Made by a program: the position numbers and the translations under genes
Origin: Mitsuaria sp. GD03876
Lineage (GTDB): Bacteria; Pseudomonadota; Gammaproteobacteria; Burkholderiales; Burkholderiaceae_C
Assembly: GCF_029840635.1 (NCBI RefSeq)
Contig: NZ_JAOCCU010000011.1
Coordinates: 1 to 64,000, forward strand
Reading direction: 5' to 3'
Length of the DNA: 64,000 bases
Shown: piece by piece, positions 47,124 through 64,000 of the stretch
How the letters are laid out: every line of letters begins with the position of its first letter
Position numbering within the stretch: position 1 is the stretch's first letter
Notes under the pieces: model-generated
The model's input: the letters and a program-made list of their open reading frames with translations, nothing else
Databases searched by the model: none
Told to the model about the DNA's origin: nothing

Positions 47124-47726
47124 TCAATACGGGCCGTGGGCCAGCCAGTGCTCGAGCTGCGGCAGGCGGTCGTTGCCCCAGAAGCGCTCGCCCTCGACGA
47201 TGAAGAACGGCGAGCCGAAGACGCCGCGCGCCTCCGCCAGGTCGATCTCCGCCTTCAGCCGGGCGCGGGTGGCGGAGTCGTTGGCCAGCGCCTGGAGCTG
47301 GTCGGGGGTGATGTGCTGCGTGGCGCAGAGGTCCTGCAGCACCTCGCCCTGGGCGATGTTGCGGTCGTCGACGAAGTAGGCGCGGTAGACGTCGCGCGCG
47401 AACTGGCGGCCCTGCTCGGGATTGCGGTCGTTGAACCAGTGGAACAGCCGCGCGGCCATCTCGGTGTGCAGGCCCAGCGAGGACGGCGTGTTGTAGGGCA
47501 CCTGCATGTAGGCGGCCAGCCGGGCCACGTCGCGGCGGATGTAGTCGCTGCGCATGACGCTGTTGGGGATGCGGATGCGCTCCAGCGACTGGAAGTTGGC
47601 GTCCAGCACGATGGCGTGCCAGTTGACGGTGCGGCTGTACTTGGCGGCGAGCGCGTCGATGTGCTGCGCGGCGATGTAGCCGTAGGGGGAGGCGAAGTCG
47701 AAGTAGAAGTCGATGGGGGCAGACAT
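47124..47726 (-). CDS. DsbA-family 2-hydroxychromene-2-carboxylate isomerase-like protein
   Basis: Protein of 200 aa with a thioredoxin-like fold. It opens with IDFYFDFASPYGYIAAQ, in which Ser replaces the catalytic Cys of DsbA, as in the glutathione-dependent HCCA isomerases; GVFGSPFFIVEGERFWGNDRL near the end carries the conserved cis-Pro. The reaction in naphthalene degradation is not supported by context, so the true substrate is unknown. The ATG at 47726 has AGGAG upstream. Confidence 0.9.
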   Translation of the reverse strand: MSAPIDFYFDFASPYGYIAAQHIDALAAKYSRTVNWHAIVLDANFQSLERIRIPNSVMRSDYIRRDVARLAAYMQVPYNTPSSLGLHTEMAARLFHWFNDRNPEQGRQFARDVYRAYFVDDRNIAQGEVLQDLCATQHITPDQLQALANDSATRARLKAEIDLAEARGVFGSPFFIVEGERFWGNDRLPQLEHWLAHGPY

Positions 47727-47928
47727 GCGGGCTCCTGTGAGGCGCGCGGATTGTAGGAGGCGGGTCCGCGCACGCCAGCCGCCCGTTCGGGCGGCTAGCG
47801 CAGAGCCCGTCCCGCCGTCAATCACCCCCCGGCACCCCCCTCGCCGCGAGGATCCGCCGGTTGCGTTCCGATACAGTCCTTTACTTCAGTTCGCCGCTGC
47901 CGTGCGCCCTTCGTGAGGGATGTCACGC

Positions 47929-48052
47929 CCGGCGGGCTTTCCAGGGCAAAACCGGCGCGAGCCGGCGACGCAAAGCCTCCGGTCTCGATGCCGACATCCC
48001 CGATGTCGCGGTCCGAGATAGCGGGGTTGCCGGACCGGATCCCCTCCGTCCG
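47929..48052 (+). promoter_or_regulatory. Cyclic-di-GMP-I (GEMM-I) riboswitch upstream of the TPS operon
   Basis: The conserved core is clear: AGGGCAAA (47943-47950); a P2 stem CCGGC/GCCGG closed by a GCGA GNRA tetraloop (47952-47965); GACGCAAAGCCTCCGG (47967-47982); a P3 arm closed by CTCG/CGAG and a distal CGACAT/ATGTCG hairpin; and TAGCGGGGTTGCCGG (48019-48033). P1 can pair CCGGC (47929-47933) or GGC (47935-47937) with GCCGG (48029-48033). These blocks match the Vc2 aptamer closely. Downstream, CGGA-C-CGGA and TCCG-TCCG (48031-48052) can form an 8-bp stem with one bulge that shares P1 bases, a candidate expression platform. No T-run follows it, so the sign of control is unclear. It lies about 70 nt before tpsB in a 395-bp gap (47727-48121) with no other gene; the promoter was not identified with confidence. 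Confidence 0.92.
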
Positions 48053-48121
48053 TGATGCATTGCCGATCCGCCTCGCCGGCCCCTGGGTTGAAAAAACAAC
48101 GCCCAACAACGGCAGGCAGGG

Positions 48122-49930
48122 ATGCGGAAGAAGTATGAACAGCGGGTGCGCGCGCGACGCGGCCCGGCCGTCGGCATGCAGCCGGCGATCACGATCGCGA
48201 TGGCCGCGGCGCTCGCCGCGCTCGCCCCGGCGGCCCGGGGCCAGGTCTTGCCCGCGGGCACGGTCGATCCGGACGCGCAGCGCCAGCTGCAGCAGCAGCG
48301 CGAGGCCCAGCAGCGCCAGGCGCTCGAGCGCGAACCCGACGTGCGCCTGCGCGCCAGCCCGCCGCCGGCCCGCCAGCGCCTGCGCGACGACGAATCCCCC
48401 TGCTTCCCGATCCGCGAGATCGAACTGCGCGGCGTCGAGGACCAGCCGCGCATGGCCCGCGAGATCCGCGCGCTCGACGGCCCGCAGGGCGACGACTCGC
48501 CGATCGGCCGCTGCCTGGGCGCCACCGGCGTCGCGACGCTGGTCACGCGGCTGCAGGACGCGCTGATCGAGGATGGCTTCATCACCACCCGCGTGCTCGC
48601 GCCGCCGCAGGACCTGTCCAGCGGCCGGCTGGTGCTGGCCGTCGTGCCGGGCCGCGTGCACGCGATCCGCCTGCGCGAGGGCACCTCGCCGCAGGTGCGC
48701 CTGGCCAACGCGCTGCCGGTCCGGCCCGGCGATGTGCTGAACCTGCGCGACATGGAGCAGGCGCTGGAGAACCTCCAGCGTGTCCCCGGCGCGCAGGCCG
48801 ACATCCAGGTCGAGCCCGCGCAGGGCACGGCGGAGCCGGGCTACAGCGACCTGGCCGTCAGCTGGCAGGGCGGCCGGCAATGGCGCTGGCAGGTCTCGCT
48901 CGACGACAGCGGCAGCGCGGCGACGGGTCGTTACCCGCTGGCGCTGACCGCCTCGCTGGACCATGCGCTGACGCTCAACGATCTCTTCTACGTCACGCTG
49001 AACCGCGATGCCGACTGGCTCGCGCGCCGCGTCGACCCGCGCGACGGCCCGCACAAGGGCACCGGGGGCCATGTGCTGCATTACTCGCTGCCCTGGGGCC
49101 ATGCGCTGCTGAGCCTGACCGTCAGCCGCAGCGGCTACCGCCAGGTCGTCATCGGCGCCAACCAGACCTACGTCTACCGCGGCGCCAGCAGCAACGGCGA
49201 GCTGAAGCTGACCCGCATGCTCTGGCGCGACGGCCAGTACAAGTTCAGCGGCTTCGTGAAGCTGTTCGGCCGCGGCTCGCGCAACTACATCGACGACACC
49301 GAGGTCGAGGTCCAGCGCCGCCGCACCGGCGGCTGGGAGGCCGGCGTGACGCTGCGCCGGCAGGCCGGCGGCGTCGGCAGCGAGCTGGAGCTGAGCATGA
49401 AGCGCGGCACCGGCGCCTTCCACGCGCTGACCGCGCCGGAGGAGGACTTCGGCGAGGGCGATTCGCGCGTGCGGCTGCTGCAGGGCAGCGCCGGCCTCAA
49501 CGGCGCGGTGCCGCTGGGCAGCCGGCAACTGCTGCTGAGCAGCTCGGTGCGCGCGCAGTTCGCGATGAACCGGCTCACGCCGCAGGACCGCTTCTCGATC
49601 GGCGGCCGCTACACGGTGCGCGGCTTCGGCAGCGACGCGTCGCTCTCGGCCGACAACGGCCTGCTGTGGCGCAACGAGGCCGAGCTGCCCTTGAGCGCGC
49701 CGCGGCAGGCGCCGGCGGTGTCGATGTACCTCGGCGTCGACGCCGGCCTGGTGGGCGGCCACGGCGCCGATCGCCTGGCCGGCCGCCACCTGACCGGCGC
49801 GGTGATCGGCTCGCGCGTGCGCGCGCAGGGCGTCTCGCTCGACGTCTTCGCCGGCGCGCCGCTGTGGCAGCCCGCCCGATTCCCCGTGGCCCGCGTCGTC
49901 GCGGGCTTCACCCTGACCTATTCCCGTTGA
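48122..49930 (+). CDS. Two-partner secretion transporter TpsB (ShlB/FhaC/CdiB family)
   Basis: Outer-membrane transporter of 602 aa that exports the TpsA partner. After a signal peptide (ITIAMAAALAALAPAARG) comes a Gln-rich N-terminal segment as in FhaC (helix 1 and linker), two POTRA domains (about 95-250, with CFPIREIELRGVE), then a 16-strand-type barrel with the conserved loop motif TVRGFG near residue 500. The ATG at 48122 is used (weak GGCAGG upstream); 48176 is an alternative. TpsA follows after 36 bp. It is the first gene behind the c-di-GMP riboswitch. Confidence 0.93.
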   Translation: MRKKYEQRVRARRGPAVGMQPAITIAMAAALAALAPAARGQVLPAGTVDPDAQRQLQQQREAQQRQALEREPDVRLRASPPPARQRLRDDESPCFPIREIELRGVEDQPRMAREIRALDGPQGDDSPIGRCLGATGVATLVTRLQDALIEDGFITTRVLAPPQDLSSGRLVLAVVPGRVHAIRLREGTSPQVRLANALPVRPGDVLNLRDMEQALENLQRVPGAQADIQVEPAQGTAEPGYSDLAVSWQGGRQWRWQVSLDDSGSAATGRYPLALTASLDHALTLNDLFYVTLNRDADWLARRVDPRDGPHKGTGGHVLHYSLPWGHALLSLTVSRSGYRQVVIGANQTYVYRGASSNGELKLTRMLWRDGQYKFSGFVKLFGRGSRNYIDDTEVEVQRRRTGGWEAGVTLRRQAGGVGSELELSMKRGTGAFHALTAPEEDFGEGDSRVRLLQGSAGLNGAVPLGSRQLLLSSSVRAQFAMNRLTPQDRFSIGGRYTVRGFGSDASLSADNGLLWRNEAELPLSAPRQAPAVSMYLGVDAGLVGGHGADRLAGRHLTGAVIGSRVRAQGVSLDVFAGAPLWQPARFPVARVVAGFTLTYSR

Positions 49931-49966
49931 CCCGCCCGGGTCGACCGCTTTCCCGTTGAGCTCGCG

Positions 49967-52900
49967 ATGAACCGTCTCCAGTACCGAATCGTCTTCAACA
50001 AGCAACGTGGCCAACTGATGGCCGTGGCCGAGACCGCCGTCAGCCAGACCAAGGGCGGGGCCGGGGAGAGCGAGGCGCCCGCGCGGCGCGCGCTGGCGGC
50101 GGCCGAGACGGTCGTGCCGGTCTCGCGGGGACCGCCGGCGCTGATCGCGCTGGCCGCGGCGCTGGCGATGGGCGCGACGATCACGCTCGCCCCGGACGCG
50201 TTCGCGCAGGTCAAGGCCGATCCCAACGCGCCGAAGAACCAGCAGCCGACGGTGGTCAACAGCGCCAACGGCACGGTGCAGGTGAACATCCAGACGCCGA
50301 GCGCGGCGGGCGTCTCGCGCAACACCTACAGCCAGTTCGACGTCGACAAGCGCGGCGTGATCCTGAACAACGCGCGGACCGACGCGAGCACGCAGCTCGG
50401 CGGCTACGTGCAGGGCAACCCGTGGCTGGCCAAGGGCGCCGCGCGGGTGATCCTCAACGAGGTCAACAGCAGCGCGCCGAGCCAGCTCAAGGGCTATGTC
50501 GAGGTCGCCGGCCAGCGGGCCGAGGTGATCATCGCGAATCCGGCCGGCATCCAGGTGGACGGCGCGGGCTTCATCAACGCGAGCGCCGCGGTGCTGACCA
50601 CCGGCACGCCGCGCTTCAACGCCGACGGCAGCATCGCCGGCTACGGCGTGCAGGGCGGCCTGATCCGTGTCGACGGGCAGGGCCTGGACGGCTCGCAGGC
50701 CGACTACACCGCGCTGCTGGCGCGGGCGGTGGAACTCAACGCCGGCCTGTGGGCCAAGGACGCGCGCATCCAGACCGGCACGCAGGTCATGACGGTGGAA
50801 GGCGCGGCGGCGGGCCAGGGCGCCGGCGAGGCGCTGGCGCCGACCGGCGAGCGCCCGCGCTACGCGCTGGACAGCACCGCGCTGGGCGGCATCTACGCGC
50901 AGCGGATCACGCTGGTGGGCACGGAAGCGGGCCTGGGCGTGCGGCAGGCCGGCCAGGTGGTCGGCGGCCAGTTGACGCTGCGGGCCGATGGCTGGCTCGA
51001 GAACACCGGCACCGTGTACGCCCAGGAGGGCGATGCCCAGGGCGCGCCCGCGCTGACGGTGCAGTCGAACACCGGCGTGCGCAATGCGGGTTGGGTGGCG
51101 TCGCGCGGCAGCGCGGACGTGCAGGCGCCGCGGTTGACCGGCGAGGCCGGCAGCGTCACGGCGGCGGGCATGAATCCGGATGGCACGCTGGTGGCCGGCG
51201 GCGGCAGCCTGTCGATGAGCGCGACGCAGTCGGTGGCGCAGGCGGGGCAGTTGCTGGCGGCGGATCGTCTGACCGTGCATGCGCCCGACATCGACCTGGG
51301 TGGCGCGCAGGCGCAAGCGACCTCGGTGTCGATCGCCGGCGGCGCGGTCGCGGCACGCGAGGCGCTGGTGATCGCCACCGACCGCCTCGACATCGCCGGC
51401 ACCGCCGCCGTCGACCTGACGCGCACGCGTGCGCAGGCTGCCGCGATCACGGCGTCCGCATCGTCGCTGACCGCCGACGGCGCGACGCTGCAGGCCGGGC
51501 AGGCGCTGACGCTGCGGGCCGAGGGGACGCTCAGCACGCGAGCGGCGAGCCTCGTCGCGGACCAGTTGTCCGTGACGGCGCACGACGTGGATCTGCGCCA
51601 GGGCGAATGGCTGAGCCTGGGCACCGGCGCGCTGACGGTGCGCCTCGCTGGCGCGCTGCAGGCGGATGGGGCGCGCATCGCGACCAACGCGTCGGAGCTG
51701 CTGCTGGCGGCCGACACGATCAGCGCGCAGCGCGCGCGGGTCGAGCACTACGGCGCCGGCGCGCTGACGCTGGGCACCGGGCTGCTGGACCTCGGCGCGG
51801 CGCAGGTGCTGACCAACGGCGACTTCCGGATCGAGGCGACGCAGGCGCTGCTGGACCGCGCCGACCTGTCGGCGCCGACACTGGCCTGGCATGCCGGCCA
51901 GCTGTCGCATCGCGAGGCGCGCACGCGCGTCACCGGCACGGGCGCGTCGAGCGTCGTCGTCGACGGTGCGATCGACAACACGCAAGGGCGGATCGAGGCG
52001 AACAGCGACGTCCTGTCGCTGCGCGGCGCATCGATCGACAACAACGCTGGCGTGCTGTCCACCAGCGGTAACGCGCTGCGCGTGGATGCCGGCACGGTGA
52101 CGAATCGCGCCGGGCAGATCCTGTCGGCCGGCCGGCTCGAGGCCGGCCGCATCGATGGCAACGGCGCGGGTCGACTGGACCTGCTCGACAACACCGGCGG
52201 CCGGATCGGCGCCGCCGAGATCGCGCTGAACGCGGCGCGGGGCCTCAATGCCGCCGGCACGGTGTCGGCGGACGGCGCGGCGACGCTGACGCTGGGCGAC
52301 TGGAACAACGGCGACGGCCGTGTCGAAGCGCGGGCGCTCTCGTTGACGGCCGATCGCCTGGCCGGTGCCGGCACGGTGCACGCGCGTGGCGACGCCTCGA
52401 TCGCGGCCGGCACGCTCGAGACCGGCGGCACGATCGTCGCCGGCGGCGCGCTGTCGGTGCGCGCGGACCGGATGACGACCGCCGGCCTGCTGGCCGCGGG
52501 CGTGCGAGACGACGGCACCGTCGCGGGCAGCGGCGACCTGACGATCGATGCCGCCGGCGTGCTGCGCCACGGCGGCTCGCTGCTCGCGGGCGGCGCGCTG
52601 CGCGTGTCGTCCGACGCGCTGGCGCTGCAGGGCAGCGCGACGCAAGCCGGCCAGGTCGCGCTGACGGCGCGCGGCGGCGCGCTGAACCTCGACCACGCCA
52701 CGCTCTCCGCCGCCGGCGCGCTGGCGATCGACGCCGCGGGCCAGCTCGTCACGGACGAAGCGCGCGTCGCGGGCGCGCAGGTCGACCTCCGTGCCGCCGC
52801 CTGGCGCAATGTGGGCGGCGACGTCGTCCAGACCAGCGCCGCGGGCACGATGTCCGCGCAGGTCGCCGGGCAACTGGACAACGCCGGCGGCCGCATCGGC

Positions 52901-55900
52901 GCGAACGGTCGTCAGCTGACGATCGGCGCCGCGGCGCTGGACAACACGCGAGGCCGCATCGCGCAGGCGGGCGGGGCGCTGGCGATCGATGCCGGACGGA
53001 TCGACGGCGCGGGAGGGGAGCTGTTGGCGCAGGACGCGCTCGCGGTGCGCGCGACCGGCGCGGTGGATTTGTCGGCCGCGCTCACGCAGGCACGCGCGAT
53101 CGACCTGCGTGTCGCGACGCTGTCGCATCGCGGCGGCGACATGGCCGCGCGCGACGGCCTGACGCTGGCCGCGCAGTCGATCGACAACGACGGCGGCCGG
53201 CTGCAGGCCGGCCAGGTGCTGTCGCTGTCGGCCTCGACGCTGAACAACCGCGACGGGCAGGTGAATGGCGGCACGGTGACGATCGCCGCCGACACGTTGA
53301 CGAACGCGGGCCGTGGGTTGGTCAGCGCGGCCGAGCGCCTGACGGTGCGGGCCAACGCGGTCGACAACGAGGGCCACCTGCAGTCGCAGGGCGCGCTGAC
53401 GCTCGATGCGACGGGCGGGCTGGCCAACAGCGGCACGATCACCGGCCTTGGCGCCGTCGCCGTGACGGCGGGGCAATTGACCCAGACCGCGGCCGGGACG
53501 ATCGCGTCGCAGGCCGACCTGTCGGTCGAGGTCGTCACGCTTCAGAACGCGGGCACCTTCGCGGCCGGGCTGCGCGGCGACGGATCGACCGGCACCGCCG
53601 GCGACCTCGCGCTGCGGGCCACCGGCGCGATGCGCCAGGGCGGCAGCTTGTTCGCCGCCGGGGCAGTCTCGGCGCTGGGGGCGTCGCTCGACCTGAGCGG
53701 CAGCAGGACGCAGGCGGCGGGCATCGCGCTGACCGCCACGGCCGGCGACCTTTCGCTGGCCGGCGCCCAGGCGAGCACGCCGGGCGCGCTGTCGCTGACG
53801 GCCTCGGGCCGCCTGGACACCACGGGTGCGACGCTGACCGGCGCCGACGTCGCGGTGGCGGCGCGGCAATGGAACAACACCGGCGGCCAGGTCGCGCAGA
53901 CCGGCGCGGCGGGCCAACTGACGGCCACGATCGCCGATCGCATCGATAACGGTCTAGGCGTGATCGGCGCACAAGGCCGGGCGCTGTCGCTGCAGGCGGG
54001 TGAGCTGAACAACGCGGGCGGCCGCCTGGTGCAGACCGGCGGCGGCGACTTGTCGCTGCGGGCCGACCGCCTCGGCGGCGCGGCGGGCGAGATCCTCACC
54101 GAGGGCCGCCTCACGATCGCCGCTACCGGTGCGATCGATCTGAACCAAGCGACCACGCAGGCCTCGGCGATCGCGCTGAGCGGTGCCAGCCTGGATCACC
54201 GCAACGGCCGGATGCTGGCGCAGGGCGATGCGTCGCTGTCGGTCACGGGCGCGCTGCGAAACCAGTCGGGCCAGGTCAGCGCAGCCGGCGCGCTCGGCAT
54301 CGACGCCGGATCCCTCGAGAACCAGGCCGGTCAGCTGGACGGCCGGCGCGTGACGCTGGACGCCGCGTCGCTGAACAACGGCGCGCAGGGCCTCATCGCT
54401 TCGCGCGGCGACCTGACCATCCGGGCCGGCGAATGGACGAATGACGGGGCGGTGCAGTCGCAGGGTCGTGCGGACCTGACGGCGACTGGCACGCTCGCCA
54501 ACACCGGGACGATCCATGCGCAGGGCGATGCGGCGCTGACGGCCGGCGCGCTGACCCAGACGGCGACGGGCATCGTCGCCGCGCAGGGCGGCCTGACGGT
54601 GACCGCCGACGGCATCGCCAGCGCCGGCACGCTGGCGGCGGGCCTCAAGACCGACAACTCGCTGCAGGCGGGTGGTGACCTGCGGCTCGACGTGAGCGGC
54701 ACGCTGCAACAGAGCGGTCAGTTGCTGGCGTCCGGCGCGCTGGGTGCCACCGCGGCGCAACTGCAGCTCGACGGCAGCAAGGCGCAGGCGACCCGCGCGA
54801 CGCTCGTCGCCAACGGCGCTTCCGGACAGCCGGGCGCCATCGGTCTCGACCGCGCGACCTGGTCCATCCGGGACGCGCTGTCGCTGACCGCCACCGGCGC
54901 CGTCGGCAGCGATGCGGCGGCCATGGAGGCCGGCAGCATCGGCATGACGGCTTCGAGCTGGAGCAATGTTGCGGGGCGCTGGCTGCAGACGGCACCGGCG
55001 GGCGCGTTCACCGCGTCGCTCGGCGGTCTGCTCGACAACCGGCAAGGCGGGATCGCGGCCAACGGCGCGTCGCTGTCGCTGATGGCGGATCGCCTGGACA
55101 ACGGCGAGGGCCGCATCGCGCAAGCGGGCGGCGCGCTCGATGTGCGCGTCCGCCAGCTCGACGGCGCGCAAGGGCAGTTGCTGTCGGCCGGCGCGCTGAC
55201 GGTGACGGCCACCGGCGCGGTGACGCTCGACCGGGCGACGACCCAAGGCGGGAGCGTCCATCTGGGCGCCGCCAGCCTGAGCCACGACGGCGGCCAGTTG
55301 CTGAGCGCCGGCGACGCGGTGTTGCGCGTCGATGGCGACATCGGCAATCGCGGCGGCCGGATGCAGGCGGCGGGCACCTTGGACCTCGCGTCCGCGGGCC
55401 TGGACAACACCGCCGGACAACTGTCGGCCCAGACACTCGCGCTGCGCGCGGGCCGCGTCGACAACGGCGCGGGCGGCCTCCTCGGCGCGGCCGGCACGCT
55501 GAGCGTCGAAGCCGGCTGGCTGACCAATGCCGGCACCGTGCAGAGCGTGGGCGATGCCACGCTGACGGTGGCGGGCGCGTTCGACAACACCGGCATGGTC
55601 TACAGCCAGGGCCGCGTCACGCTGCAAGCGGACCAGCTGTACAACGCCGGCACGATCGCGGCGCAGGGCGCGCAGGGCGTCACCACCGGGCAACTGGGCG
55701 GCAACGGCGTCTTCGCCGCGGGCCTGCGTCCCGACAACACCCTCGCGGGCAGCGGCGACCTGTCGCTGTCGGCGACGCGGTCGCTGCAGTTTGGCGGAAC
55801 CGCGACGGCGGCCGGCGACCTGAGCGTCGCGGGACCGTCGCTGCAACTCCAGGACGCGCAGCTGCAGGCGCGCACGATGACGCTGCGCGCGCTGACCGGC

Positions 55901-58900
55901 GATCTCGCCCTCGACCGCGCGGCGGTCGCGGCCACGCAGTCGCTGACGATGTCGGCGGGCGGCGACCTGATCACGTCGCGCGCGCAGGTCAGTGCCAACA
56001 CCTTGCGCCTGGACGCCCAGGACTGGCTCAACGCCGGCGGGCGTGTCACGCAGCTGTCGCCGGCCGGCACGCTGCAGGCGACGCTGTCGGGCGACCTGGA
56101 CAACCGTGGTGGCACCATCGAATCCGCGGGGGCGCAGTTGACGCTGGGCGCGAACCTCGTCGACAACACGTCCGGACGCATCGCGCAAGCCGGCGGCAAC
56201 CTCGGCTTGCGCGCCACGCAGTGGAACGGCGCGCAAGGCCAGGTGCTGGCTTCGGGCGCGTTGGATTGGCAGGTCACCGGCGCGCTGACGGCGACTGGCG
56301 CGACGACGCAGGCCGACAGCGTCCGCATCGCCGCCGGCGGCCTCGCCCATGACGGTGGCCAGTTGGTCGCCGCGCAGGGCGCGACGCTCGACATCGACGG
56401 CACCCTGAGCAACCGCGGCGGCACGATCGCGGCCGGGGCGGCGCTGGACGTCGACGCGGCGACGCTGGCCAACACGGCCGGCGGCGTGATGCAGGCGGGT
56501 GGCGCGTTCCAGACACGGGTGATCGGCACGCTGGACAACCAGGGCGGCCGGCTGCGCAGCGGCGGCGACATGCAACTCGGCGCGGGCGCGCTGGACAACC
56601 GCGGCGGCTGGGCCGGTTCCGACGGACAGCTGACGGTGTCGGCCGCCGGTGCGGTGCAGAACCAGTCGGGCACGCTGCTGGCGCAGCAGGCGGTGACGAT
56701 CGGCGGCGGCTCGCTGGTCAACCAGGGCGGCCGCATCGCGAGCGTGCAAGGCGGCATTGGCCTGACGACGTCGGGCCTGCTCGACAACGCGCAGGGCTCG
56801 GTGCTGTCCGCGGCCGCGCTGACCGTGACGTCGACCGGCATGGTCAACCAGGGTGGCGAGATGGCTGGCACAACGGTGACGGCGGACGCGCGCGGCCAAT
56901 CCTTCGACAACCGCGGCGGACGGCTGCTGTCGAGCGACGCGATGACGGTGCGCAGCGGCGCGCTGAACAACCACGGCGGGCTGCTGCAGTCCGCGGGCGC
57001 GCTGACGGTCGACACTGCCGGCGCGGCGCTGACCAACACGGCCGATGCCGCGATCGCGGCGCCGACCGGCATGCGCGCGCAGGGCGCGCTGCGCATCGAC
57101 GCGGGCAGCGTCGACAACAGCGCCGGCATCGGCGGCAACGCGGTGACGATCAACGCGGGCTCGCTGACGAACCGCAATGCCATCTCCGGCCAGACGGTGG
57201 CGCTGGGGATCGCCGGCACACTGGACAACCGCGGCGGCCAGATCGTCGGCGCCCAGGGCGCGACGGCGACGGCGGCGCAGTTGCTGAACCAGGGCGGCCT
57301 GATCTACGGCGCGCAGTTGGTGGACCTGCGCGCGGGCGGGACGATCGACAACCGCGACACCAGCGGCGCGAACCTCGGCATCCAGGGCGGCGCGGTGACG
57401 CTGCGCGCGACCGGCATCGACAACCGCAACGGCCAGTTGCGCGCCGACGGCGACCTGCGCATTGCAGCGACGCAGTTCCTCGACAACGGCGGCGGCGTGC
57501 TGAGCGCGCTGGCGCAGGCGGCGATCGGCGACGGCGGCGCGGATCCGCGCGCGTCGACGCTGGATCTGCGCAATGGCGGCGGGAAGATTTGGGGCGGCAC
57601 CGGCGTGACGGCGTCGGCCGCGGGCCTGAACGGCGGCGGCGAGATCGCCAGCGGCGGTGCGCTGAACCTGACGCTGGTCGGCGGCCTGACCAACGGCGCG
57701 GGCACGTTGCTGCAATCGCGCGGCGACCTGTCGCTCACGCTGGGCGGCGACTTCATCAACCAGGGCGTGCTGCGCGCCAACGGCGCGTTGAGCGTGGACG
57801 CCCGCAACATCGATAACCAGGCCAGCGGCGAGCTCAGCAGCGCCGACACCCGGTTGACGACCTCGGGCACGCTGAGCAATCGCGGGCTGATCGACGGCGA
57901 CCGCGTTCGCATCGACGCGGGGCAGGTGCTGAACCTGGGCAGCGGCCGCATCTACGGCAGCGACTTGACGATCACCGGCGGCCAACTGACCAACGGCGCG
58001 GAGGGCGGCCAGTCGGCGGTGATCGCCTCGCGCGGCGCGATGGCGGTGGCGATGACCGGCGCGGTGGCCAACACGGCGCAGTCGATGATCTACGCGGACG
58101 GCGACCTGTCGCTGCGCGCGGGCAGCCTGCTCAACGAGAACGCGACGATCGAGGCGAGCCGCCTGCTGCAGCTCGACGTGACCGGCGCGGTCCGCAACGC
58201 GAGCGTGCATGACGGCGCGGACAGCCTGCCGCAGGACCCGGCGGCGCCGCGCGTGCTGGCCAGCAAGTCCTTCATCAGCAGCGGCGGCGACATGCGCATC
58301 ACCGCCGGCCAGGTCGTCAACAGCGGCGCGACGATCGAGGCGCGTGGCGACCTGCTGCTGCAGTCGGCCGACATCCAGAACCTGAACCCGTATCTGAAGT
58401 GGGCGCTGGTCAATGGCGAGACCACGACGGGCTGGGAGTTCCAGGCGCCGGGCAGCACGACGCGCTACAAGCCGGAGGACATCCGGGTGCTGTGGGCGGT
58501 GACCTTCTACAACGGATCCTGGGGCAGCGAATGGGGCAGCCCGGCGCAGAACTCGCTGGAGCCCTTCGTGTACGAGTTCCACCCGAAGAGCAAGAGCTGG
58601 TCGCAGGACACGTACAACCGCAAGATGCTGCTGCCGTCGGTGCGGTATCCCAACGAGGTGTTCGGCCGCTACCTGGGCGGGCTGGGCGGAGACACGGACG
58701 GCTCGGCGTATCGAGGCTTCGAGGTCAAGGCCAGCGGCGACCACCCGTACCGGGACTGCACGCCGGACGGCTGCACCGACACGACCATCACCGGCGCGCA
58801 CTATCCGGCCTCGGACCGGATCTGGTCGGACTTCGGCGTGACGCCGGGGGACGACGCGGGGCTGGATGCCGCGCTGCAGGCCTTCTACGACGACACCAAC

Positions 58901-61900
58901 AGCCGTTTGCGTGGTGACTTCACCGCGTTCGACATCACGCGGACGATGCAGTCGGCGAAGGTCACGCAGAGCTCGGCGGGCCAGATCATCGTCGGCGGCA
59001 CGCTGCGGGTGGAAGGCGGCGGGCGCATCGTCAACGACATGAGCCGGGTGATCGGGCGCGACGGCGTCGACATCCAGTCGGCGTCCGTCGACAACCGGAC
59101 GAAGGAGGTGACGGTCACCGGGACCGAGAAGACCTACGTGTACGTGACCTGGAACGACGGCACGGGCGTGCCCAACACCGGCTACGACTACACGACGACG
59201 GAAGTGGCCATCAATCGGCCACAGAAGCTGGTGTTGCCGGAATCGGGCGCCGGCGGGGCCGGGACGGGCACCACGCCGGGCGGCCGGCAGCTGGCGGGCG
59301 CCGTCGGCGGCGACGCGGGCGCGCAGGCGCAGCAGGCGTCGTCGTCGGGGACGGTGAACGCCGGCGCGACCGGCGCGGTCGGCGCGCTGAACGGCGTGTC
59401 GCGGCAGGCGGTCCTCGGTGGCGGCGCCGCGGGCGCGGGGCGCGCGACGACGGGCTGGCGCGCGAGTGGCGATGAAGCGCTGCAGACGCTGACGGCGCAG
59501 GACGGCACGAATGGCGCGGTGGAGGCGCAACTGCGCGTGATCGACGCCGCGGAGGCAGGCGCGCGGGTGGTGCAGGGCGAGGACGGCGCGCTGGTGCGAA
59601 CCGGCGCGCGCGCGGACCGCGTGACGGCGCAGGCGGTGCGGTCGCAGACGCTGCAGCCGCTGGACGGGCAGGGCGCGAATGTCGGCGGTCCGGGGCGCCT
59701 GACGTCGATCGGCGCGGGCGCGGCGCAGGTGGTGACGGGCACCGATGCGAACGGCCGGCTGCGGGCGACGCCGGTGTCGCTGGCGTTGCCGGGCAACAGC
59801 CTGTTCAAGCTGCGCGCGGACACGCGCTCGGGCTACCTGGTGGAGACGGATCCGCGCTTCGCCAACTACCGCGACTGGCTGTCGAGCGATTTCCTGCTGC
59901 AGGCGATGCAGCTGGATCCGGCGACGGCGCAGAAGCGCCTGGGCGACGGCTTCTACGAGCAGCGGCTGGTGCGCGAGCAGATCGGCAAGCTCACGGGCTC
60001 GACCTTCCTGAAGGGCTACGCGAGCGACGAGGAGATGTACCGCGCGCTGATGGCCAACGGCGCGAGCTTCGCGCAGGCGCACCAGCTGCGCCCGGGCGTG
60101 GCGCTGACGGCGGAGCAGATGGCGCTGCTGACGACCGACCTGGTGTGGCTGGTGGAGCAGGAGGTGACGCTGGCGGACGGCTCGACACAGCGCGTGCTGG
60201 TGCCGCAGGTGTACCTGCTGCCGCGCGACGGCGACCTGGCGGGCACGGGCGCGCTGATCGCCGGGGACCGGGTGAAGCTCGCGTTGAGCGGGACGCTGGA
60301 CAACAGCGGGGACCTGCGCGCGTCGCAGTCGCTGAGCGCGACGGCGCAGGGCATCGTCAACACGGGCAGCGTGCGCGGCACGAGCCTGGCGCTGAGCGCG
60401 AAGGAGGACCTGCGCAACCTGGGCGGCGAGCTGAGCGCGACGCAGGACCTGAGCCTGAAGGCGGGACGCGACCTGGTGATCGCCAGCACGACGGCCAGCG
60501 GGACGTCGGCGACGAGCCAGCGCACGGTGCTGGACCGCGTGGCCAGCCTGACGGCGGGCGGCGTGATGGTGCTGCAGGCGGGACAGGACGTGGTGCTGGA
60601 CGCGGCGCGGCTGAAGCAGACGGGCAGCGACGGCGGCGTGCTGGTGGATGCCGGGCGGGATCTGAAGCTGGGGACGGTGAAGACTGTGAGCAGCGATCGG
60701 GCGACGTTTGATGCGAAGAACTTCATCAACGTCAGCCAGAGCGCCGATGTCGGCAGCTCGATCCAGGCCGAAGGGGTCGTGATCCTCAAGGCGGGCCAGG
60801 ACTTGAGCGCCAAGGCGGCCCAGGTGGCCAGCGAGAAGGGCGCGGTGTCGCTGTCCGCAGGGCGGGACGTCGCGCTGCTGGCGGGGGAAACGACCGCGGG
60901 CCTCGAGCAGCAGACGTATCACACGACCAAGAGCCTCTTCTCCAAGACCACGACGAGCACCTACGACAAGGTCGATGAGAAGGGCGTGGTCGCCACGACG
61001 CTGTCGGGCGATTCCGTGACCGTGCTGGCGAAGCAGGACATCCGCCTGCAGGGCGCGCAACTGACGGCCGAAGGCAAGGCGACGCTGGACGCCGGCCGCG
61101 ACCTGCTGGTGGAGAGCGCGGAGCAAAGCCGCGACAGCACGAGCATGCGTCAGTCGGTCAAGCAATCGACGGGGCTGGGCAAGGCGGTCGGAGGTGCCCT
61201 GGTGCTGACGGGGTCACCGTTGGGCGTGAGCGCCGGCGCCGCGCTGATGGGCGGCAAGAGCGGCGCGCAAGGCCAATCGCAGAGCGTTACCGAGGCCGTG
61301 GGCAGCAGCATCAGCGCGGGCAGCGTCGTGGCGCATGCCGGACGCGACGCATCGCTGCAAGGCGCCACGGTCGTGGCCGATGGCGACGTGCTCATCCGCG
61401 CGGAGCGCAACCTGACGCTGGGCACCTCAGAGAACACGCAGGACGGCAGCAGTAGCGCCAGCAGCAAGAAGAGCGGCTTCATCGGCAGCTTCCTGCAGCC
61501 GGCGGTGGGCACGGTCAAGCAGAGCAACACCAGCGACCAGCACGGCACGACGCAGACCGGCACGCAAGTGGGAAGTCTCGGCGGCAGCGTCACGCTGCAG
61601 GCCGGTGAGCGCTACACGCAGACCGGCTCACAGGTCATGGCGCAGAAGGCGGCCGACGGCAGCGGCGGCGACATCGACATCCTGGCCAAGCAGGTCAAGA
61701 TCGACGCGGCGCAGAACACCGCCGACAGCACGCAGACCAGCAAGTTCAGCAAGACGGCGTTGGGGGGCACGGTGAGCGTGCCGTTGGTCAGCGCGGTGCA
61801 GAGCGCGATCGGCGCGGCCGAGGCCGGCGGCAAGACCAGCGACAAGCGCATGCAGGCGCTGGCCGGTATGAGCGCGGCGTTGGCGGCCAAGGATGCGGTG

Positions 61901-64000
61901 GACGCGGCGCAGACGCTGTCCAAGGGCACCGGCATCAAGGTCGGCGTGAGCCTCGGTACCTCCAAGAGCGAAAGCACGACCACCGAGCAGAGCACGACCG
62001 CGATCGGCAGCCAGGTGGCGGCACAAGGCAACGTGAGCATCCGAGCCACCGGCGGAGGAAAGGACAGCACGCTGCAGGTCGTCGGCTCCGACATCAAGGC
62101 TGATGGCAAGGCCACGCTGAAGGCCGATGGCGCGGTCAGCCTGGAGGCGGCGCAGTCGACCAGCACTCTGCACAGCACCAACAGCAGCAGCGGCGCGAGC
62201 ATCGGCGTGTCGTATGCCTTCGGCGGCACGCAGAACGGCTTCACGCTGGAGGCCTCGGCCAACAAAGGCAAGGGACGCGCGGAGGGCACCTCGGTGACCA
62301 ACACGCAGACGCATGTCGCCGGCAACGAGGTCCGGATCGAGTCCGGCGGCGACACGACGCTCAAGGGCGCGGTCGTCGAAGGCGGCAAGGTCAGCGCCAA
62401 CGTCGGCGGCAACCTCAACATCGAGAGCGTGCAGGACGGCGCCACCTACGACGCCAAGCAGCAGAGCTCGGGTGTGGGCGTGAGCCTGTGCATCCCGCCG
62501 TTCTGCTACGGCACGAGTTCGGTGAACGCCAGCGTGAGCAACGCCAAGGCCAAGGGCGACTTCACGTCGGTGACGGAGCAGAGCGGCATCGCCGCGGGCG
62601 ACGGCGGCTTCCAGCTGACGGTGAAGGGCAACACGGACCTGAAGGGCGGATCGATCACCAGCACGCAACAGGCGGTCGACGACAAGAAGAACAGCCTGGT
62701 GACAGGCTCGCTGACGCAGAGCGAGCTGCAGAACTCCGACAGCTACAAGGCCAGCGGCTACAGCGTGGGCGTGAGCCTGAGTTCGAAGGTGGGGGACCAG
62801 CCGTCGACGAAGACCGAGGAGGAAAAGAAGGGCGACGGGAAGTCCAGCACCAAGCCCGGGTTCTCACCCGGCATGGGCAGCGTGAACGGCAGCCAGGGCA
62901 GCACGACGGTCAGCGGTATCAGCGGAGCGGAAATCACGATCACCGACGAGGCCAAGCAGAAGGAGCTGACCGGGAAGGATGCGGCCACGACGGTGGCGGA
63001 GCTGAACCGCGATGTCACCACCGGCAAGGACGCCAGCGTCTCGCTGAAGAAGAGCTGGGACGGCCAGGCGCTGATGAACGAGGTGCAGACCCAGATGCAG
63101 ATCACGCAGCAGGCGCTGCCGCGGATCGCCAATGAGATTGGCACGGAGATGGGGAACATGGCCACGCGTCTGCGGGCGGAAGGTAAGGACGAGGAGGCGG
63201 CCAAGTACGACGAAGGTGGCGCGTATCGCGTGGCGGCGCATGCGGCGCTGGGAGCGCTTGGTGGTGGACTGGCCGGGGGTGTCGGCGCGGGAACATCCGC
63301 GTACGTGACGGCGGATATCGCCAAGGCCCTCAAGGGCTTGCCGGAGGCGGTCAGTGACCTCGTCACCGCGGCCGCGGCCACGGCGGTGGGTGCTGCGACG
63401 GGTGGAGCGGCGGGCGCTGCGACGGCGGGGAATCAGGTGGTGAACAACTATCTGAATCACCGCGAGGCCGCTCAACTGGAAGCCGCTCGCGAAAAGTTGC
63501 AGAAGTGCAAGGGCGACAGCCAGTGTCAACAAGAAGCCAAGCAAGAGATTGCGGCTCTGGTTGCGCTGGACAACAGCCGAAACGCCGCCCTCCAAGCTGC
63601 CTGTGTGAATCCGTCTTCCGCCGCATGCGCCAAGGAACTTTCCGGCGTTCAAGGCGCGGCTCAAAGCTATGCCGGCAAGCCTCGGCAGGTCGACATCTTT
63701 GGCGTGATCGCGAAGGAGCAAAGTGAGGCGCAGACGCTCAGCGAGATGTACGGCAACAGAGCAAGAAATGCTGGAGCGTTCAACACGATCAGCGCTGTCG
63801 GCGATGTGATCGCACAGGGAGTGGTCGACGGGCTGAAACTTGTCAAGACAGCGGTGCTCGCGACCGAGCCTCTTGGCCCGGACGGGATGCCGATTGATCG
63901 CGGAGTTGGTGGCGAACCGAATCCGGTACGGCAGCAGGCCCAAAAGGATCTTTCGGACCTGTCCAAGGGTCTGGCTACCTTCCTTTCCGCGCCCATCGAC
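49967..64000 (+). CDS. Giant CdiA/FhaB-like TpsA exoprotein (3' end beyond window)
   Basis: The frame from the ATG at 49967 stays open to base 64000, at least 4,678 codons. Residues 1-22 are the extended signal peptide region (MNRLQYRIVFNKQRGQ), followed by a hydrophobic signal cut near AFAQ (80). The TPS domain (about 85-330) has GNPWL, ILNEV and ANPAGIQVDGAGF. FHA-1 beta-helix repeats (LDNxxGxI, LxAxGxL patterns) run to about 2800. A non-repetitive segment (about 2806-3120) has a Cys pair (2931, 2936). A YP-like domain (about 3276-3417) has LPGNSLF and ETDPRFANYRDWLSSDFLL. FHA-2-type repeats run to about 4410, then an Ala/Gly-rich pretoxin region ends in VVNNYLN (4491-4497), a degenerate VENN motif. 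The toxic tip, if any, lies outside the window. It may be a CDI toxin or a filamentous adhesin. The ribosome binding site is weak, so coupling to TpsB is likely. Confidence 0.95.
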   Translation, partial: MNRLQYRIVFNKQRGQLMAVAETAVSQTKGGAGESEAPARRALAAAETVVPVSRGPPALIALAAALAMGATITLAPDAFAQVKADPNAPKNQQPTVVNSANGTVQVNIQTPSAAGVSRNTYSQFDVDKRGVILNNARTDASTQLGGYVQGNPWLAKGAARVILNEVNSSAPSQLKGYVEVAGQRAEVIIANPAGIQVDGAGFINASAAVLTTGTPRFNADGSIAGYGVQGGLIRVDGQGLDGSQADYTALLARAVELNAGLWAKDARIQTGTQVMTVEGAAAGQGAGEALAPTGERPRYALDSTALGGIYAQRITLVGTEAGLGVRQAGQVVGGQLTLRADGWLENTGTVYAQEGDAQGAPALTVQSNTGVRNAGWVASRGSADVQAPRLTGEAGSVTAAGMNPDGTLVAGGGSLSMSATQSVAQAGQLLAADRLTVHAPDIDLGGAQAQATSVSIAGGAVAAREALVIATDRLDIAGTAAVDLTRTRAQAAAITASASSLTADGATLQAGQALTLRAEGTLSTRAASLVADQLSVTAHDVDLRQGEWLSLGTGALTVRLAGALQADGARIATNASELLLAADTISAQRARVEHYGAGALTLGTGLLDLGAAQVLTNGDFRIEATQALLDRADLSAPTLAWHAGQLSHREARTRVTGTGASSVVVDGAIDNTQGRIEANSDVLSLRGASIDNNAGVLSTSGNALRVDAGTVTNRAGQILSAGRLEAGRIDGNGAGRLDLLDNTGGRIGAAEIALNAARGLNAAGTVSADGAATLTLGDWNNGDGRVEARALSLTADRLAGAGTVHARGDASIAAGTLETGGTIVAGGALSVRADRMTTAGLLAAGVRDDGTVAGSGDLTIDAAGVLRHGGSLLAGGALRVSSDALALQGSATQAGQVALTARGGALNLDHATLSAAGALAIDAAGQLVTDEARVAGAQVDLRAAAWRNVGGDVVQTSAAGTMSAQVAGQLDNAGGRIGANGRQLTIGAAALDNTRGRIAQAGGALAIDAGRIDGAGGELLAQDALAVRATGAVDLSAALTQARAIDLRVATLSHRGGDMAARDGLTLAAQSIDNDGGRLQAGQVLSLSASTLNNRDGQVNGGTVTIAADTLTNAGRGLVSAAERLTVRANAVDNEGHLQSQGALTLDATGGLANSGTITGLGAVAVTAGQLTQTAAGTIASQADLSVEVVTLQNAGTFAAGLRGDGSTGTAGDLALRATGAMRQGGSLFAAGAVSALGASLDLSGSRTQAAGIALTATAGDLSLAGAQASTPGALSLTASGRLDTTGATLTGADVAVAARQWNNTGGQVAQTGAAGQLTATIADRIDNGLGVIGAQGRALSLQAGELNNAGGRLVQTGGGDLSLRADRLGGAAGEILTEGRLTIAATGAIDLNQATTQASAIALSGASLDHRNGRMLAQGDASLSVTGALRNQSGQVSAAGALGIDAGSLENQAGQLDGRRVTLDAASLNNGAQGLIASRGDLTIRAGEWTNDGAVQSQGRADLTATGTLANTGTIHAQGDAALTAGALTQTATGIVAAQGGLTVTADGIASAGTLAAGLKTDNSLQAGGDLRLDVSGTLQQSGQLLASGALGATAAQLQLDGSKAQATRATLVANGASGQPGAIGLDRATWSIRDALSLTATGAVGSDAAAMEAGSIGMTASSWSNVAGRWLQTAPAGAFTASLGGLLDNRQGGIAANGASLSLMADRLDNGEGRIAQAGGALDVRVRQLDGAQGQLLSAGALTVTATGAVTLDRATTQGGSVHLGAASLSHDGGQLLSAGDAVLRVDGDIGNRGGRMQAAGTLDLASAGLDNTAGQLSAQTLALRAGRVDNGAGGLLGAAGTLSVEAGWLTNAGTVQSVGDATLTVAGAFDNTGMVYSQGRVTLQADQLYNAGTIAAQGAQGVTTGQLGGNGVFAAGLRPDNTLAGSGDLSLSATRSLQFGGTATAAGDLSVAGPSLQLQDAQLQARTMTLRALTGDLALDRAAVAATQSLTMSAGGDLITSRAQVSANTLRLDAQDWLNAGGRVTQLSPAGTLQATLSGDLDNRGGTIESAGAQLTLGANLVDNTSGRIAQAGGNLGLRATQWNGAQGQVLASGALDWQVTGALTATGATTQADSVRIAAGGLAHDGGQLVAAQGATLDIDGTLSNRGGTIAAGAALDVDAATLANTAGGVMQAGGAFQTRVIGTLDNQGGRLRSGGDMQLGAGALDNRGGWAGSDGQLTVSAAGAVQNQSGTLLAQQAVTIGGGSLVNQGGRIASVQGGIGLTTSGLLDNAQGSVLSAAALTVTSTGMVNQGGEMAGTTVTADARGQSFDNRGGRLLSSDAMTVRSGALNNHGGLLQSAGALTVDTAGAALTNTADAAIAAPTGMRAQGALRIDAGSVDNSAGIGGNAVTINAGSLTNRNAISGQTVALGIAGTLDNRGGQIVGAQGATATAAQLLNQGGLIYGAQLVDLRAGGTIDNRDTSGANLGIQGGAVTLRATGIDNRNGQLRADGDLRIAATQFLDNGGGVLSALAQAAIGDGGADPRASTLDLRNGGGKIWGGTGVTASAAGLNGGGEIASGGALNLTLVGGLTNGAGTLLQSRGDLSLTLGGDFINQGVLRANGALSVDARNIDNQASGELSSADTRLTTSGTLSNRGLIDGDRVRIDAGQVLNLGSGRIYGSDLTITGGQLTNGAEGGQSAVIASRGAMAVAMTGAVANTAQSMIYADGDLSLRAGSLLNENATIEASRLLQLDVTGAVRNASVHDGADSLPQDPAAPRVLASKSFISSGGDMRITAGQVVNSGATIEARGDLLLQSADIQNLNPYLKWALVNGETTTGWEFQAPGSTTRYKPEDIRVLWAVTFYNGSWGSEWGSPAQNSLEPFVYEFHPKSKSWSQDTYNRKMLLPSVRYPNEVFGRYLGGLGGDTDGSAYRGFEVKASGDHPYRDCTPDGCTDTTITGAHYPASDRIWSDFGVTPGDDAGLDAALQAFYDDTNSRLRGDFTAFDITRTMQSAKVTQSSAGQIIVGGTLRVEGGGRIVNDMSRVIGRDGVDIQSASVDNRTKEVTVTGTEKTYVYVTWNDGTGVPNTGYDYTTTEVAINRPQKLVLPESGAGGAGTGTTPGGRQLAGAVGGDAGAQAQQASSSGTVNAGATGAVGALNGVSRQAVLGGGAAGAGRATTGWRASGDEALQTLTAQDGTNGAVEAQLRVIDAAEAGARVVQGEDGALVRTGARADRVTAQAVRSQTLQPLDGQGANVGGPGRLTSIGAGAAQVVTGTDANGRLRATPVSLALPGNSLFKLRADTRSGYLVETDPRFANYRDWLSSDFLLQAMQLDPATAQKRLGDGFYEQRLVREQIGKLTGSTFLKGYASDEEMYRALMANGASFAQAHQLRPGVALTAEQMALLTTDLVWLVEQEVTLADGSTQRVLVPQVYLLPRDGDLAGTGALIAGDRVKLALSGTLDNSGDLRASQSLSATAQGIVNTGSVRGTSLALSAKEDLRNLGGELSATQDLSLKAGRDLVIASTTASGTSATSQRTVLDRVASLTAGGVMVLQAGQDVVLDAARLKQTGSDGGVLVDAGRDLKLGTVKTVSSDRATFDAKNFINVSQSADVGSSIQAEGVVILKAGQDLSAKAAQVASEKGAVSLSAGRDVALLAGETTAGLEQQTYHTTKSLFSKTTTSTYDKVDEKGVVATTLSGDSVTVLAKQDIRLQGAQLTAEGKATLDAGRDLLVESAEQSRDSTSMRQSVKQSTGLGKAVGGALVLTGSPLGVSAGAALMGGKSGAQGQSQSVTEAVGSSISAGSVVAHAGRDASLQGATVVADGDVLIRAERNLTLGTSENTQDGSSSASSKKSGFIGSFLQPAVGTVKQSNTSDQHGTTQTGTQVGSLGGSVTLQAGERYTQTGSQVMAQKAADGSGGDIDILAKQVKIDAAQNTADSTQTSKFSKTALGGTVSVPLVSAVQSAIGAAEAGGKTSDKRMQALAGMSAALAAKDAVDAAQTLSKGTGIKVGVSLGTSKSESTTTEQSTTAIGSQVAAQGNVSIRATGGGKDSTLQVVGSDIKADGKATLKADGAVSLEAAQSTSTLHSTNSSSGASIGVSYAFGGTQNGFTLEASANKGKGRAEGTSVTNTQTHVAGNEVRIESGGDTTLKGAVVEGGKVSANVGGNLNIESVQDGATYDAKQQSSGVGVSLCIPPFCYGTSSVNASVSNAKAKGDFTSVTEQSGIAAGDGGFQLTVKGNTDLKGGSITSTQQAVDDKKNSLVTGSLTQSELQNSDSYKASGYSVGVSLSSKVGDQPSTKTEEEKKGDGKSSTKPGFSPGMGSVNGSQGSTTVSGISGAEITITDEAKQKELTGKDAATTVAELNRDVTTGKDASVSLKKSWDGQALMNEVQTQMQITQQALPRIANEIGTEMGNMATRLRAEGKDEEAAKYDEGGAYRVAAHAALGALGGGLAGGVGAGTSAYVTADIAKALKGLPEAVSDLVTAAAATAVGAATGGAAGAATAGNQVVNNYLNHREAAQLEAAREKLQKCKGDSQCQQEAKQEIAALVALDNSRNAALQAACVNPSSAACAKELSGVQGAAQSYAGKPRQVDIFGVIAKEQSEAQTLSEMYGNRARNAGAFNTISAVGDVIAQGVVDGLKLVKTAVLATEPLGPDGMPIDRGVGGEPNPVRQQAQKDLSDLSKGLATFLSAPID

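Follow-up and report, generated by a model that had tools for sequence, protein, structure and literature searches.

Does an RNA that senses c-di-GMP, the messenger that steers attachment and motility, also command a toxin aimed at neighboring cells? The question is raised by a locus in a 64,000-nucleotide stretch of DNA (hereafter the window), where a preliminary description made from the sequence had placed a GEMM-I aptamer directly before a tpsB-tpsA pair and had suggested a scan with the Rfam model RF01051.

The aptamer and the operon that it heads

The scan of the whole window (cmscan) returned one match above any Rfam gathering score, namely the c-di-GMP-I family RF01051, which scored 56.4 bits (E 2.4e-08; cut-off 35). 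The alignment spans model positions 1-87 of 87 and tpsB begins 87 nt further on, in agreement with the placement first proposed. The aptamer motifs that had been named are likewise all there: AGGGCAAA at 47943-47950 (read from the sequence), a P2 with arms at 47952-47956 and 47961-47965 closed by a GNRA loop (GCGA), GACGCAAAGCCTCC at 47967-47980, and TAGCGGGGTT at 48019-48028. The 6.36-Mb genome holds no other RF01051 match; it does hold 55 GGDEF-domain matches, so c-di-GMP is surely made. The sequence evidence supports a genuine c-di-GMP-I aptamer at the head of the tpsB-tpsA operon, in an arrangement kept in other species.

The specificity base, which we take to be position 20 of the aptamer, is G, the same as in c-di-GMP binders. 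The first junction strand contains an extra A, which sets the subtype of the window apart from other aptamers, and this unusual strand could be read as a sign that the ligand is another dinucleotide, for example 3',3'-cGAMP. We regard that as very improbable, since the mark described for cGAMP binding is G20A (PMC6274999), and since the c-di-GMP-I cut-off is passed and the c-di-GMP-I-GGC variant (RF03167) scores 52.6 bits, below its cut-off of 59.

Table 1. Features of the aptamer-led operon; positions are those of the window unless the contig is named.
Feature	Position	Strand	Basis or content
GTCAATCACCCC, element conserved in TPS-type leaders; may be a promoter or a site for a regulator	47817-47828	+	
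c-di-GMP-I (GEMM-I) aptamer	47935-48034	+	RF01051, 56.4 bits
Hp1, hairpin directly 3' of the aptamer, overlapping the possible P1 3' strand	48031-48052	+	covariation
Hp2, hairpin 5' of the ribosome site, within a longer predicted start-codon stem	48084-48105	+	by eye in alignment, folds
Likely ribosome-binding stretch GGCAGGCAGGG	48111-48121	+	read from sequence; predicted mostly paired
tpsB, cdiB-like outer-membrane transporter, 602 aa	48122-49930	+	POTRA_2, POTRA_3, ShlB
tpsA, cdiA-like exoprotein	49967-64000 in window	+	ESPR, TPS, Fil_haemagg, Fil_haemagg_2, DUF6862
PoNi-family immunity gene	contig 64744-65631, outside window		PoNi_N, PoNi_C

The make-up of the operon is that of two-partner secretion (type Vb), with POTRA and ShlB domains in TpsB and a TPS domain in TpsA. 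tpsA extends beyond the end of the window and stops at contig position 64747, for 4926 aa altogether, and its stop overlaps the start of the PoNi immunity gene by 4 nt. The exoprotein had been called CdiA/FhaB-type. Because of the variable C-terminus of tpsA and the overlapping PoNi-family immunity gene, the operon is, as judged from its sequence, a CdiA-type contact-dependent toxin/immunity system and not a plain adhesin, which sharpens the earlier label.

The polymorphic C-terminus has been described as a pattern of contact-dependent inhibition (CDI) (PMC6350997). The tail of the window protein, 915 residues long, aligns with 10 of 14 other tails only to residue 414-558. Six of ten other riboswitch-led C-termini match toxin-type enzyme families (two C39 peptidases, two deaminases, a colicin D and a non-specific endonuclease), and the remaining four comprise one with a HINT domain only and three without a match. 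A pretoxin HINT domain is present in three of the ten, and TG in one, under its cut-off. An open frame of low third-position GC (0.35-0.54) overlaps the tpsA stop in 9 of 14 tails; among the other five, the tpsA end is unclear in three, and only more distant frames are present in two. Pfam, NCBIfam and PADLOC gave no named toxin family for the C-terminus of the window tpsA, and PDB gave no match. From its PoNi partner, and from inspection by eye, we would guess at a PoNe-like nuclease. A second, shorter haemagglutinin-repeat frame, orphan-CdiA-like, lies 3' of the immunity gene (L031:4525-7842; contig C3 66524-69841).

Aptamer-led operons in the genus and beyond

The genus sample consisted of 16 genomes, which we call Roseateles sensu lato, a name of our own inference. 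RF01051 is found in 14 of them, at 32 places, and half of these aptamers (16/32) precede tpsB or tpsA. Fifteen of the 16 were placed with TpsA and TpsB profiles built partly from the same loci, and a search with the Pfam model PF05860 independently meets the same 15; the sixteenth, L061, runs into a contig end but has a tpsB-like start, recognized by eye. The other 16 genus aptamers stand before fliE-fliF-fliG at nine loci, an assignment that Pfam confirms for one set, and before a secreted protease-like gene, recognized by eye, at seven.

The TpsB profile gave 14 strong full-length matches in the genus genomes, and all 11 above 1100 bits are aptamer-led. Three distant strong loci (943 bits in G009; 681 and 542 bits, both in G012) have no aptamer, and eight weaker TpsB matches have none in the genus-wide RF01051 search. 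A dedicated scan of L098, L238, L239, L243 and the weak loci other than L247 (seven of eight) also found none. By PF05860, aptamer-led places make up 15 of the 67 TPS-domain places in the genus. Since the 11 top TpsB matches are aptamer-led and the TPS places are so in 15 cases out of 67, the aptamer is held by one cdiBA clade and not by TPS genes at large. At L041-L044 the aptamer heads tpsA with no intact tpsB between them. The remnant between aptamer and tpsA at L041 (G005) is a tpsB-like start only.

At the level of the family, RF01051 occurs in 88 of 299 genomes, four of the 299 belonging to the genus of the window. All 143 family places outside the genus were examined, which brings the loci to 175 in total. 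Four of the 143 are TPS by profile. Two of these, L137 and L183, come from two genomes of one genus and have operons related to the Roseateles ones; the other two, L147 and L162, are both in a single genome of another genus. L160, in addition, reads as a decayed TpsA 3' of the aptamer.

The signature GGGCAAAACCGG is carried by 15 of 16 Roseateles TPS aptamers and by 0 of 159 other aptamers examined. L147 and L162 carry instead the GGCACACC subtype, which is seen also at flagellar loci, and because the genome that holds them has a different aptamer subtype, the TPS link suggests recruitment on at least two occasions. The flagellar loci (L053-L060 and L062) share a paired junction change, GGCACACC with GGTCGC replacing GGCAAACC with GGACGC. 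Their aptamers are another subtype, with leaders of ~540-705 nt before fliE.

RF01051 is present in 67 of 369 genomes at the class level. With two profiles, none of 49 of the 115 places other than that of the window was TPS, in a set of 30 supplied loci and 19 chosen ones, mostly long-insert; the profiles came from Roseateles and some loci spanned only 1.5 kb, so that distant TPS genes could be missed. The idea of a wider TPS link in the class was dropped on this result.

Over the 175 loci the commonest first gene is secreted protease-like, in a cluster of 57 first genes; the protease names were given by eye, and the one such gene tested in Pfam gave He_PIG only. Chemoreceptor and GGDEF/EAL genes are also among the aptamer-led first genes. 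G476, a genome of another family, has 11 c-di-GMP-I matches, several of them long-insert. Two aptamers of equal score, L087 and L102 (G271:C1 434001 and 436357), lie on the same strand ~2.3 kb from each other and may reflect a tandem gene duplication.

An element upstream of the aptamer follows the TPS loci. GTCAATCACCCC has a single occurrence in the genome, and the pattern GTCAA[TC]C[AG]C is found at most 300 nt upstream of 13 of the 16 genus TPS loci and of L183 and L160. It is absent upstream of L032, L033, L043, L137, L147 and L162, and from all of the 151 positioned non-TPS loci as counted after L061 and L160 had been reclassed. The pattern itself had flagged L061 and L160, both first filed as non-TPS. 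This conserved element hints at a transcription start 5' of the aptamer.

Leader hairpins, expression platform and sign of control

The preliminary description had also pointed to a stem directly after the aptamer that would compete with P1. The stem, Hp1, exists, and in relatives it is conserved and covaries. Across 11 distinct 22-nt versions, pairing is found in 95.5% of cells against 81.5% in shuffles. Covariation scores 0.566, the shuffled value being 0.296; 0 of 500 shuffles reach the observed score, although related sequences inflate such shuffles. Slid registers pair in 14-48%. This set left out 5 of the 16 genus leaders: L035, which repeats L034; L038, L041 and L043, which have other lengths; and L045, which has no clean hairpin. 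A similar hairpin is present after 14 of 15 TPS aptamers and, among the others, after 83 of 135 (Fisher p 0.02). L061 and the extra-genus TPS loci are counted here as others, and loci that had no recognizable core (22) or could not be placed (three) are omitted. The position of Hp1 is thus not unique to TPS leaders. Single-leader energy tests gave p <0.05 for Hp1 in 4 of 15 leaders and for Hp2 in 2 of 15. The proposed competition fared less well than the stem. P1 pairing is possible in many leaders, but in 18 leaders their own flanks pair no better than swapped ones (p 0.53), and it is therefore the positional overlap of Hp1 with P1 that speaks for competition.

These features bear on the alternative in which tpsB is not governed by the aptamer, which would then be a relic or part of another transcript. 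A sigma-70-type promoter match is absent in 47700-48300, and the extra A of the junction departs from other aptamers, both of which would agree with this alternative. However, many species retain the core, Hp1 and the upstream element, the arms of Hp1 change in matched pairs, and at L041-L044 the aptamer heads tpsA even where no intact tpsB lies between, which makes a relic or a separate transcript improbable.

No intrinsic terminator was found on the + strand in 47700-48300. A U-rich tail follows the first hairpin at eight loci, two of them TPS (L038 and L039) and six non-TPS, and a general intrinsic terminator was rejected. Because none is seen, the output most likely lies in how far ribosomes can reach tpsB. 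In a test on 15 leaders (L045 was dropped, and L183 is without a found start), the stretch that follows Hp1 paired with the start region of its own leader at a mean of -20.4 kcal/mol and with swapped ones at -18.0 kcal/mol; the p value of 0.013 takes no account of how closely the leaders are related. In these modeled energies, the pairing fits a stem that would hide the ribosome site. On balance, we favor a translational output.

Folding gave no such guidance on the sign. When 16 leaders were folded with P1 instead of Hp1, the ribosome site became harder to reach in eight and easier in five, with a mean difference of 0.0, and the attempt to read the sign from folds with and without the 5' arm of Hp1 was dropped because no consistent direction emerged. 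The preliminary description had judged the sign not readable from the sequence, and our folds concur.

We think it probable that the leader works as a c-di-GMP-I riboswitch and controls a cdiB-cdiA-cdiI-type operon; its binding, output and sign are our inference. The leader at 47935-48121 would set the expression of the operon, with c-di-GMP binding altering the downstream folding of Hp1 and the start-codon stem, and this change in folding would govern the access of ribosomes to tpsB. High c-di-GMP would then place more toxin protein on the surface of sessile cells. We lean toward this ON sign, acting at translation, because of the missing terminator and the precedent of Vc1, which precedes the colonization factor gbpA and is described as a positive c-di-GMP-I element with neither terminator nor anti-SD (PMC4744006).

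The opposite sign, by which c-di-GMP would switch the operon OFF and motile cells with low c-di-GMP would make the toxin, agrees with the lack of a readable direction in the folds. Cd1 and Vc2, of the same aptamer family, are OFF switches, Vc2 being called a translational one (PMC9262584), and in the same genus the family also precedes flagellar genes. These flagellar aptamers, however, differ in subtype and have the long leaders given above, and Vc1 is positive; we consider an OFF switch unlikely, although less so than a relic.

The ON reading can be extended, tentatively, to a broader proposal that we hold with somewhat less than even confidence. In Roseateles and its near relatives, a TPS-specific c-di-GMP-I subtype, together with the upstream element and the hairpin, may let c-di-GMP command antibacterial contact toxins directly through RNA and, with the aptamers of fliE-fliF-fliG and of the secreted proteases, may form one RNA-based programme that stops swimming and arms settlers; the TPS link would have arisen at least twice.

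Meaning and comparison with known systems

If the proposed control is true, the killing of neighbors would depend on the sessile state with no need of a regulatory protein. The related leaders would also offer a natural series for the study of a GEMM-I switch without a terminator, a question left open by the Vc1 paper (PMC4744006). In the open-licence literature we found no earlier report of a c-di-GMP RNA reading out a contact-dependent toxin system: no source there joined a c-di-GMP riboswitch to two-partner secretion, CDI or haemagglutinin, an absence that is not proof, and the sole match for Roseateles with riboswitch concerns V. cholerae. Such riboswitches are known before some adhesins (PMC4744006).

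A close parallel in RNA is Vc1 of Vibrio cholerae, where the same aptamer family precedes a secreted surface-colonization protein; GbpA, however, binds chitin and is no two-partner toxin accompanied by an immunity gene (PMC4744006). The GEMM-I switches pilM and Cd1 belong to the same family and, once bound, do not allow a rival fold further downstream to form, in ON and OFF versions; they use intrinsic terminators, whereas none was found in the leader of the window (PMC9262584). Among two-partner systems, the cdrAB operon of Pseudomonas aeruginosa likewise has a c-di-GMP-dependent output, but this is achieved through FleQ and LapD/LapG proteolysis and not through RNA, and CdrA is an adhesin (PMC5422565, PMC6584795). 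A 2017 review of TPS systems names FleQ for cdrAB and does not use the word riboswitch (PMC5422565). The CDI systems cdiBAI and bcpAIOB have the same parts as the operon of the window, with a TpsB partner, a giant exoprotein, a polymorphic C-terminus and an immunity gene (PMC6350997); as to control, the same review gives RsmA as the regulator of two CDI systems (PMC5422565).
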